Assembly (NCBI GenBank): GCA_025462835.1
Contig: JAOAPH010000039.1
Location: forward strand, 1-64,000
From: Candidatus Angelobacter sp.
GTDB lineage: Bacteria > Acidobacteriota > Terriglobia > Terriglobales > Acidobacteriaceae
Reading direction: 5' to 3'
Length of the DNA stretch: 64,000 nucleotides
Below the pieces are notes generated by a model, which searched no databases, was not told where the DNA came from, and saw only the letters and a program-made list of their open reading frames with translations. The position numbers and the translations under genes were made by a program. Shown piece after piece: positions 47,161 through 50,839 of the stretch; the first letter of the stretch is position 1, and each line of letters begins with the position of its first letter.

Positions 47161-48633
47161 ATGCCCCCCGCACTCCAAACCGACGTCCTCGTCCGCACCA
47201 TCGAAGACTTCCTCTCCGAATCGCCCAACGCCGTCGTCATCGAAGACGGCATGGTCAGCTTCGATCTAGGCACGGCGAAGTATGCGATTTCGTCAGATCA
47301 CGGTAAATGTTTGTTGCACCTGTGGTCGGAAGAGCGCAACGCGGTGCGCCGCGTGGTGGAAGCGGAGACGAAAAACGGAACGCTGAAGCTTTCCGTGCAG
47401 AAGTTTGGGCAGGCGCGTCCGCTTAAATTAGAAATCTGTTCAGACCGGGATCGACGCACCTCGACAGCGAAAAAGTCGGCGCGCGCTGCTTATCAGCGAA
47501 TGCTGCATCGGGTTCTGCAGCGCGCATATCCCGGATTCACAATCGAGAAGCTGACATCCGCCGCCGATCTGGAGCACAGTTTTGGCCCGGCGTACACGCG
47601 CGGATTGTTACGCAAGGGGCGTTCCGCCTTTGCGATCGTCGGCGTGAATGCGCAGGAGGTCCAATCATCAATCGACGCGGCGCTCACCGTAGGACTGCTC
47701 TGGCTCGACCTCTGTCGCGAGAGGAATGACAGCTTTGTCGTCGAGGGTCTGAAGCTCTTTTTTCCACCTAGCACTTCGGCGACGGTGCGTGCGCGTATCG
47801 CTCACCTGAACCATCATGCGGCAAAATTTCACTTGTACGAAGTGGAAGAGCGCGACGAAGTAGTGCATGAGTTCGACACCACTGACGCGGGAAACATAGC
47901 GACGCGGCTCGTGCGATGCCCTGACGATTCCGCCGCACGCCAGCGATTCGCTGCAACTATCACGCGTGTCACCGCAATCGTTCCCAATGCGGAAGTCGTG
48001 GTTCTGAGTTCATCGGAAGTCGCTTTTCGTCTCCACGGACTGGAGTTCGCGCGCGCGCGCAATGCGCTCGCTCCGGGAAGTTTTCAGCAGCAGCAGGAGA
48101 TCACGTTTGGTGCAGGAGCCTATGAGACGGCGTTGACCGCAGACAACGAAGAGCAGTTCGCGGAACTGATGCGTCGCGTGCTGGAATCGCGCCGCCCCGG
48201 CGGAAACCGTTATGACGCGCTATGGCGAATGCAGCCGGAGCGCTGGCTGGAGTCGCTCATTGTGCGCGACATCAGCGCCTTCGACTCGCGGCTCGACCCC
48301 GCGTTTGTCTATTCGCAGGTGCCGGCCTTCGCGGCCTCTGATCGTGCGATGATCGACGTGCTCACCTGCACTCGCGCTGGCCGCCTCGCCGTCCTCGAAC
48401 TCAAGGCCAGCGAAGATCTGCATCTGCCGCTGCAAGGGTTGGATTACTGGTCACGCGTCAACTGGCACCACCAACGCGGCGAATTCCAGAAGTTCGGATA
48501 CTTCTCCGGCCGCGAACTCTCTCCCGAGCCGCCGCTGTTGATGCTGGTAGCGCCCGCGTTGCAAGTCCATCCCGCAACCGATACGCTGCTACGATTCTGT
48601 CGACGGCAATCGATTGCACGCTCATTGGCGTAG
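47161..48633 (+). CDS. Hypothetical protein with a PD-(D/E)XK-like C-terminal domain
   Basis: The 490-aa protein has no signal peptide. In the C-terminal region MIDVLTCTRAGRLAVLELKASEDLH gives D399 ... E413-L-K415, the D-(x14)-E-x-K spacing of PD-(D/E)XK nuclease-type folds; the preceding PERWLESLIVRDI is a helix as in such folds. The rest (N-terminal beta segment, central RARIAHLNHHAAKF region) is unrecognised. If the pattern is right, it could cut or bind DNA. It is convergent with the UvrC-like gene, 61 nt apart. A TATATA box sits about 29 nt before ATG 47161. Confidence 0.6.
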   Translation: MPPALQTDVLVRTIEDFLSESPNAVVIEDGMVSFDLGTAKYAISSDHGKCLLHLWSEERNAVRRVVEAETKNGTLKLSVQKFGQARPLKLEICSDRDRRTSTAKKSARAAYQRMLHRVLQRAYPGFTIEKLTSAADLEHSFGPAYTRGLLRKGRSAFAIVGVNAQEVQSSIDAALTVGLLWLDLCRERNDSFVVEGLKLFFPPSTSATVRARIAHLNHHAAKFHLYEVEERDEVVHEFDTTDAGNIATRLVRCPDDSAARQRFAATITRVTAIVPNAEVVVLSSSEVAFRLHGLEFARARNALAPGSFQQQQEITFGAGAYETALTADNEEQFAELMRRVLESRRPGGNRYDALWRMQPERWLESLIVRDISAFDSRLDPAFVYSQVPAFAASDRAMIDVLTCTRAGRLAVLELKASEDLHLPLQGLDYWSRVNWHHQRGEFQKFGYFSGRELSPEPPLLMLVAPALQVHPATDTLLRFCRRQSIARSLA

Positions 48634-48694: not shown

Positions 48695-49984
48695 TCAACT
48701 GTGACTCGGTTCTTCCTTTGCGTCACTCTGCGTCCTTTGCGGTTCGAGCTTTTGCCCTCTTCCGACAAACACTCGTGACACCCCATTCAGTATTCTTCGC
48801 CACGGCCAATCGGCATCAGTGTCGCGAAAGAAAATTTCACCCACCCGGTTGCTCTTGTAATACCAGCGCTTCAGGATTGCCAACTGCTCGGCCTGGCTGG
48901 CGACAGAAATCTTCCCGCTCGGCTGCAGCGATTCCACCACCTCTCTAAGCCGGACCTCCGGCTTGGGTGCTTCTGCAACGATAACTTCAGCACTCGGTTC
49001 CAGCGGTACCGGTTGCACCATCAGCGGCTGCGCATAGAACGACGACGATCCCGCCTGCTGCGCGTGTGCCATCCCAAGCACGGAAAACTCGATTGGCCCG
49101 ACTATTTGTCCGCCGGCAAACCGGAATACCGCGACGCTGTTGTGCTCAGCCGATGCCGACGGCTGCACAATCAATGCATCCAGCCGGTCAATGCGACGAA
49201 TGATCTCATCGCACTCGCGGGCGACAGTCTTAACTTTTTCCACGCGCGTGTGCAGCGCGGCAGCATTCTCAAATTCAAGATCGGTAGAAGCCTTGTCTCG
49301 TTGCGCAGAAATTTCAGAGATGAGCGATTCGCCGCGAGTGTCGAGAAAATCTTGGACTCGCCGCATCTCGGAAAAGTATTCCTCGTCGGTGCAGCCTTTG
49401 AAACACGGCGCCAGGCACATCTTCATTTCCGAATAGATGCATCCGGGAAATGCAGGATCAGGGTTCAGCTCAAACGTGCATCGGCGAGACTTGAAGAGAT
49501 CGAGCGCATCATTAAGGAAACGGTCGGCAACGGCGTGCGAGCGAAACGGTCCGTAGTAAACCGATTGCGTGTTCAAAGCTTTTTCAGCCGACCGCCCCAG
49601 CTTGCGCGTCACATACGCGCGTGGATAGGCATTCTCCCAGTGAATGCGTATCAGAGGTGAAAGGTTGAGGCGAAGACGCTTGGTGTAGGTCTCGGGAAAG
49701 ATCTTGCGCACTAGCTTATACAGCAGGGCAACGTTCTCGAAATCCGAACCGGTAGACGAGCACTCGATCCCGGCGCAGCGGTCGCGCAGGTTGAGCCGCT
49801 TGCTTTGCGCTTCGGCGGGGGCGAGCAGACGCATGATCCGACGCCGTAGGTTTGCCGCCTTGCTGATGTAAGGCTCGGCATGGGCATCATGGCCACGCAG
49901 GAGGAAGACGCCTGCGCCATCTGGAATTTGCGCAATGATTTCCCTGTCGCGTTCCGGAGAGAACGGGATGGAATGCGTCAGCAC
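48695..49984 (-). CDS. UvrC-like protein lacking nuclease active sites
   Basis: The 429-aa protein aligns with the N-terminal two-thirds of UvrC. The GIY-YIG region is degenerate: GVF (F27) instead of GVY, YIS instead of YIG, L88 where the catalytic Glu belongs and T101 for the Asn, while the NLRRR arginines remain. The four Fe-S-type cysteines (CTFELNPDPAFPGCIYSEMKMCLAPC, spacing x12, x7, x3) and the UVR helix (DLEFENAAALHTRVEKV) are conserved, so it may bind UvrB. The (HhH)2 and EndoV-like C-terminal half is missing. GTG 49984 is the start. Third gene of the DnaC-like/DUF4184/UvrC-like operon. The last about 15 residues come from a repeat. Confidence 0.82.
   Translation of the reverse strand: MLTHSIPFSPERDREIIAQIPDGAGVFLLRGHDAHAEPYISKAANLRRRIMRLLAPAEAQSKRLNLRDRCAGIECSSTGSDFENVALLYKLVRKIFPETYTKRLRLNLSPLIRIHWENAYPRAYVTRKLGRSAEKALNTQSVYYGPFRSHAVADRFLNDALDLFKSRRCTFELNPDPAFPGCIYSEMKMCLAPCFKGCTDEEYFSEMRRVQDFLDTRGESLISEISAQRDKASTDLEFENAAALHTRVEKVKTVARECDEIIRRIDRLDALIVQPSASAEHNSVAVFRFAGGQIVGPIEFSVLGMAHAQQAGSSSFYAQPLMVQPVPLEPSAEVIVAEAPKPEVRLREVVESLQPSGKISVASQAEQLAILKRWYYKSNRVGEIFFRDTDADWPWRRILNGVSRVFVGRGQKLEPQRTQSDAKEEPSHS
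48714..48744. repeat. CTTTGCGTC/CTTTGCGGTT repeat within the UvrC-like gene's 3' end
   Basis: CTTTGCGTCACTCTGCGTCC then TTTGCGGTTCGAG, a relative of family R1 (CTCCGTG-type tandem). It lies inside the coding region and encodes the final EPQRTQSDAKEEP-type residues, which have no UvrC counterpart. Confidence 0.6.
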
Positions 49985-50023
49985 AACCTTATGTTATCGG
50001 TTTGCAGCGGGGAGGAGCAGTGG

Positions 50024-50839
50024 CTAATCGGAAACCGGCTCAGACTGGCTGTCGAGCAAGAAACGTCGGAAGTGCCAAATCAGGCTAAAGATAAGAATCT
50101 CCAGAGTGAGGATCTTCATTCCGAGGATAGCGCTGTAACCGAGGAAAGCCCGTCCAAAATGCATTGAGAGTGGATTCAGCCAGAGCCGCGCGACAGATGG
50201 CGCAATCGCTCCCGCTGCGAAACTTACCAGCAAGATCATGCGTGTCACCGGAGACAATGAGAGATGCGCGTGCGCAGCCGACTCATCCGCGGAAGATTCG
50301 CGCAACCACCTGAAATAGTAATACCCGATCAACATCAATCCGATCACACTGCTTACGTATTGCAGCACGTCATAGATGCCGATCTGCAGTCGCGAAGCGA
50401 TGATGATGTGTTTTCTTAGGAACCCGAGTTGTTCAACCATCCACCCGCTGTTGTGAGTGAATGAATCCCAAGTGATGTGGCTGGCTGCGCCCAACAAGAT
50501 GGAGCCGATGATCTTCGCGAATTGTGCGACGGGAAAGAACGAAAACCCTTCCGCGGCGGGTAGAAGCCTCAACTGGTGCGATGCAGGAAACAATGAGATC
50601 AATGGACGTTTCAAGAATGTGTGGAACAGCCACAACGCAGCCAGACCCAACGGCAGGCAGAAGAAGAACAATCCGGGAAGCGTATGTGCGTATGTGCCGA
50701 GTCCCACAGGCAGACGATTTCCCAGACGGGGAATGAAATACAACATGTCCGGGGCAAAACTCCCCACGACCAGCGCGGAGAGGATGCCGTAGCGTCGAAT
50801 GGGGATTACAGCTGCGGGATGTGAAAGCGTAAACGGCAT
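50024..50839 (-). CDS. DUF4184-family membrane protein
   Basis: The 271-aa protein begins MPFTLSHPAAVIPIRRYG and has several hydrophobic spans and a HITWDSFTH motif near residue 120, the DUF4184 pattern (predicted membrane-bound hydrolase-like, related to YdjM-type). Function unknown. ATG 50839 lies 9 nt after the DnaC-like gene's stop and 39 nt before the UvrC-like gene's start, consistent with one operon. Confidence 0.85.
   Translation of the reverse strand: MPFTLSHPAAVIPIRRYGILSALVVGSFAPDMLYFIPRLGNRLPVGLGTYAHTLPGLFFFCLPLGLAALWLFHTFLKRPLISLFPASHQLRLLPAAEGFSFFPVAQFAKIIGSILLGAASHITWDSFTHNSGWMVEQLGFLRKHIIIASRLQIGIYDVLQYVSSVIGLMLIGYYYFRWLRESSADESAAHAHLSLSPVTRMILLVSFAAGAIAPSVARLWLNPLSMHFGRAFLGYSAILGMKILTLEILIFSLIWHFRRFLLDSQSEPVSD

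Follow-up and report, generated by a model that had tools for sequence, protein, structure and literature searches.

Candidatus Angelobacter sp. (Acidobacteriota, class Terriglobia) carries, in the first 64,000 nucleotides of contig JAOAPH010000039.1 (assembly GCA_025462835.1; this whole stretch is referred to as the window), a gene for a short UvrC paralogue from which, judged by its sequence, both nuclease sites are missing. An earlier note on the window had placed this gene at 48695-49984, and these coordinates are right; the gene lies on the minus strand, with a GTG start and a product of 429 amino acids. The gene, its domains and its predicted promoter are laid out as follows.

48695..49984, minus strand: nuclease-dead short UvrC paralogue, 429 amino acids, GTG start (open reading frame translation, TIGR00194, AlphaFold2)
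49640..49942, minus strand: GIY-YIG fold domain, residues 15-115 (alignments; Foldseek best match 1yd6)
49391..49480, minus strand: four-Cys region, C169, C182, C190 and C194, plus C198 (conservation counts)
49229..49330, minus strand: UVR motif, residues 219-252 (PF02151, 21.1 bits; alignments)
48761..49204, minus strand: post-UVR beta/alpha linker domain, residues 261-408 (hhalign, AlphaFold2)
49991..49996, minus strand: -10-like hexamer TAACAT, positions -12 to -7 relative to the GTG (putative promoter of a leaderless transcript; conserved in relatives)

The paralogue is colinear with UvrC residues 1 to ~345, comprising the GIY-YIG fold, the four-Cys region, the UVR motif and the beta linker. 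Its two best family matches are both far below their cut-offs: the uvrC model TIGR00194 (115.7 bits, cut-off 285) and the exonuclease-Cho-like model NF005906, corresponding to PRK07883 (111.7 bits, cut-off 495). With hhalign, residues 14-389 pair with UvrC through the linker and stop before EndoV (99.9%, E 1e-33); the last ~150 residues are the counterpart of the UvrC linker, and W374, G382-E383 and R404 are conserved in this part. The AlphaFold2 model has a predicted local distance difference test score (pLDDT) of 90.2 and a predicted template modelling score (pTM) of 0.87, from a 64-row alignment. The only high-probability Foldseek matches were UvrC GIY-YIG domains (TMt 0.66-0.72, best E 4e-3), headed by 1yd6 (TMt 0.72), and the structural search found no template outside the GIY-YIG domain.

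As the earlier note had claimed, the C-terminal (HhH)2/EndoV half is absent, the protein ending after the linker by translation and by hhalign. The single EndoV match of the genome falls outside the paralogue, in a separate uvrC gene that retains an intact GIY-YIG site and the EndoV domain and is cut by a contig edge.

Lost catalytic residues and retained motifs

The substitutions F27, S41 and L88, first read from the translation, hold up in alignments. phmmer placed residues 11-98 on the Bacillus caldotenax UvrC GIY-YIG structure, with L88 in the catalytic Glu column, and alignment to E. coli UvrC and Cho set F27 in the GIY Tyr column (Y21/Y38), S41 in the YIG Gly column (G34/G52) and L88 opposite E81/E95. 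The proposed replacement of Asn by T101 stands in part: the Asn is lost, but the exact column differs between methods, with Y100 opposite N93/N107 by MAFFT and T101 by hhalign, neither being Asn. The RDDK motif of UvrC is replaced alongside the metal-binding Glu, the Asn and the GIY Tyr. Among 96 distinct relatives, the Glu column holds Leu in 94 and Glu in none, and the GIY Tyr column holds Phe in 94. Across the class, the catalytic Glu and Asn occur in 0/26 paralogues, and the whole Y/Y/G/K/R/Y/E/E/N set is present in 25/25 UvrCs.

We consider it very improbable that the protein is a still-active nuclease with relocated catalytic residues, acting as a Cho-like backup 3' incision enzyme. Other active-site residues are indeed kept, namely Y39 (the YIG Tyr), K42 and R49, which the earlier note did not mention, and unusual GIY-YIG active sites are reported, as in R.Hpy188I (PMC2630997). 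A displaced catalytic Glu had been named beforehand as the finding that would speak against nuclease loss, and the only nearby Glu is E83, which lies five residues upstream of the L88 column and is near-invariant in the paralogues. We rejected it as a displaced catalytic residue because its homologue in active UvrCs is an additional Glu, present alongside the catalytic one (E76 versus E81 in E. coli); it is also missing from two relatives, L174 and L178. Further evidence against activity is that the RDDK motif is replaced together with three catalytic residues, the GIY Tyr, the metal-binding Glu and the Asn.

The four Cys with UvrC-like spacing were correctly recognized from the translation. 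They are kept in 95-96 of the 96 close relatives and in all 26 class paralogues, and their spacing (C-x12-C-x7-C-x3-C) differs by one residue from that of UvrC (C-x11-C-x7-C-x3-C). Within the family of the paralogue, GCIYSEMKMCLAPCFKGC in the four-Cys region is near-invariant. The UVR motif is likewise retained: its PF02151 score of 21.1 bits is marginal, slightly below the Pfam cut-off of 21.5, though the core F238-E239 is invariant. F238 aligns with F223 of E. coli UvrC, a residue that matters in UvrB binding, and is found in 26/26 class paralogues. The UVR element of UvrC is required for UvrB binding (PMC7835731), and a [4Fe-4S] cluster in UvrC is reported (PMC8837605, citing Silva 2020). 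By analogy, we infer that the four Cys of the paralogue may hold such a cluster.

Distribution, selection and origin

The paralogue query matched 148 of the 150 sampled genomes of its family. Nine of these gave weak UvrC-like matches only (E 8e-5 to 5e-16) and were not counted, so that the paralogue is carried by 139/150, and most genomes without it are incomplete drafts. A family profile separated members (~260 to 651 bits) from the relatives in family f77 (130-150 bits) and from UvrCs outside the class (at most ~123 bits). The paralogue occurs in families f1, f2, f76, f78, f79 and f83-f85, and f77 has a divergent relative. Co-occurrence in related genomes, which the earlier note had held to be informative, thus extends to most families of the class. 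No member-level score was found outside the class in a profile search of a phylum sample, and a contig scan returned only Acidobacteriota among the 80 loci kept.

Maximum-likelihood analysis of residues 15-300 recovered a single clade of paralogues and f77 relatives (bootstrap 99), separate from the UvrCs of the class (98). E. coli Cho falls with the paralogues (bootstrap 98) on a long branch, and its position may reflect long-branch attraction. Of the f77 proteins, 5/6 retain the GIY Tyr, but their Glu column is occupied by Leu; the catalytic Glu was therefore probably lost before the paralogue and f77 lineages split. We read the paralogue as ancient, vertically kept and the product of one event. 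A mobile-element origin was rejected: the two plasmid matches inspected (Tistrella and Tsukamurella) are orthodox UvrCs. Phage matches reached ~26% identity over no more than 79% of the query.

The ratio of nonsynonymous to synonymous substitution rates (dN/dS, Nei-Gojobori) is 0.05-0.2 in close pairs, and the dead GIY-YIG domain is also clearly under purifying selection. We give practically no credence to a decaying uvrC duplicate, although the missing catalytic site and C-terminal half might suggest one; this reading is refuted by dN/dS, class-wide retention, invariant motifs, a conserved promoter and the single deep clade. Selection on a nuclease-dead UvrC paralogue rather than decay, as the earlier note had argued, is borne out by the dN/dS values and class-wide retention, with an intact uvrC alongside.

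The dead domain has also changed in composition. Its net charge is +8.6 to +9.3 in the paralogues versus +3.1 in UvrC, and it has 14.9 Arg versus 7.6. This gain in charge suggests that a nucleic-acid-binding surface has been retained in modified form, and nucleic-acid binding is probably part of the job of the paralogue. The protein appears to be more than a stripped UvrB-binding fragment, since conservation extends to the dead GIY-YIG domain, which is also strongly basic.

Proposed role and related proteins

The paralogue probably acts to adjust DNA repair rather than to cleave DNA. The most likely role, to which we give about even weight, is that of a non-catalytic repair accessory, a pseudonuclease that binds DNA and engages UvrB, modulating how UvrC is recruited. 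On the best reading of the conserved motifs, it would compete with UvrC, or assist it as a co-factor, on the UvrB-DNA complex. The UVR hairpin would pair with the C-terminal UVR of UvrB, the four Cys, like those of UvrC, would bind a [4Fe-4S] cluster, and the DNA beside UvrB would be covered by the basic pseudonuclease domain. The paralogue could then take the place of UvrC on the complex, so that incision by UvrC proper would be delayed, licensed or redirected, perhaps according to redox state. More tentatively, we propose a class-wide UvrC pseudoenzyme that competes for UvrB at lesions as a built-in excision-repair regulator, possibly switched by a redox-sensitive cluster.

The genomes supply the expected partner once: a single uvrB was found in 20/20 relatives checked, with a UVR motif in those UvrB C-termini that were readable, and a matching UvrB duplication was therefore rejected. 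In the source genome, uvrB sequence is spread over two contigs. In one f77 genome (L215; G387 contig 22), ~5 kb separate uvrC from the divergent paralogue on the same contig; no such closeness was seen in the other genomes listed.

Several observations weigh against a role in UvrB-dependent repair. The case for UvrB binding comes from conserved motifs, and within the UVR motif H245 stands in place of the UvrC Arg in the main clade. ClpC/ClpE, too, give weak matches to the UVR portion of the profile. Families f75, f80, f81 and f82 lack the paralogue, with profile matches at UvrC level or none. Its gene neighbours are not nucleotide excision repair genes and differ in most other families of the class, and the upstream region gave no match to any known LexA box type that was tried, so that LexA/SOS control was rejected.

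Some of these observations would fit a nucleic-acid-binding Fe-S pseudonuclease acting outside UvrABC repair, its UVR hairpin serving self-association or binding another UVR protein such as ClpC. We regard this as possible but rather doubtful. The strongly basic GIY-YIG domain, H245 and the weak ClpC/ClpE matches are in keeping with it, as are the neighbours that recur in its own family, an IstB/DnaC-like ATPase and, nearby, genes reading as HU and RuvA. However, those neighbours are not kept in most other families, F238, the counterpart of UvrC F223, does not vary, and UvrB was always present in the 20 relatives.

Relative to orthodox UvrC (TIGR00194), the paralogue shares the colinear domains described above but lacks the catalytic Glu, Asn and Tyr, the RDDK motif, the EndoV/RNase H domain and HhH, and forms a separate clade. 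E. coli Cho (YdjQ) is also a short UvrC homologue encoded beside a full uvrC, and in the tree it groups with the paralogue on long branches. The Cho profile NF007833 matches the paralogue weakly (36.8 bits, cut-off 367), and the two are reversed in what they keep: alignment supports the claim that Cho retains its GIY-YIG site (Y38, E95 and N107), and Cho is without a UVR motif. The paralogue lacks the Cho-specific C-terminal domain and has the UVR motif and the UvrC linker instead.

Closer in layout is a 'Cho-like' type (C4-UvrBb without EndoV) described from a single Gloeobacter violaceus sequence by Dunin-Horkawicz in 2006 (PMC1564403). Compared by domain set alone, both have GIY-YIG, C4 and a UvrB-binding domain with neither EndoV nor exonuclease, so the domain set of the paralogue is not new; the paralogue itself is nuclease-dead and class-wide. 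The Cho-like proteins of Actinobacteria (PRK07883/NF005906) share C4-UvrBb without EndoV (PMC1564403) but are fused to an exonuclease domain, which the paralogue lacks. In the open-access literature searched, we found no description of the nuclease-dead state, its class-wide conservation or the basic pseudodomain.

A dead UvrC retained in almost every sampled genome of one family and by most families of the class would offer a natural test of UVR and Fe-S roles beyond cutting, and would be a candidate repair regulator. Schemes of excision repair in bacteria usually show UvrA, UvrB and UvrC, and no regulator devoted to the step from UvrB to UvrC.

Predicted promoter and gene neighbourhood

The gene appears to be leaderless with its own predicted promoter. 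The hexamer pattern TANNNT lies exactly 12 bases ahead of the start codon in 71/84 relatives and at -17 to -9 in 75/84 (shuffled mean 11.7), and a Shine-Dalgarno-like motif was found in 0/84; together these give the gene its leaderless look. The conserved hexamer also supports the GTG start. Leaderless expression is possibly common in the class.

An IstB/DnaC-like ATPase gene (PF01695; 50849-51652, minus strand) lies upstream on the same strand in 54/75 related loci and often adjoins the paralogue. An operon with a repair gene was rejected, as this ATPase recurs mainly in the family of the source organism and a separate promoter is predicted for the paralogue. In the window, a DUF4184 protein gene (50024-50839, minus strand) lies between the ATPase and the paralogue, a position that it takes in only 4 loci. 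Convergent with the paralogue, a gene at 47161-48633 on the plus strand encodes a 490-residue protein with no Pfam match that is nearby in 37/75 loci; by eye, ELKA..LPLQGLDYW near its end resembles PD-(D/E)XK nucleases.
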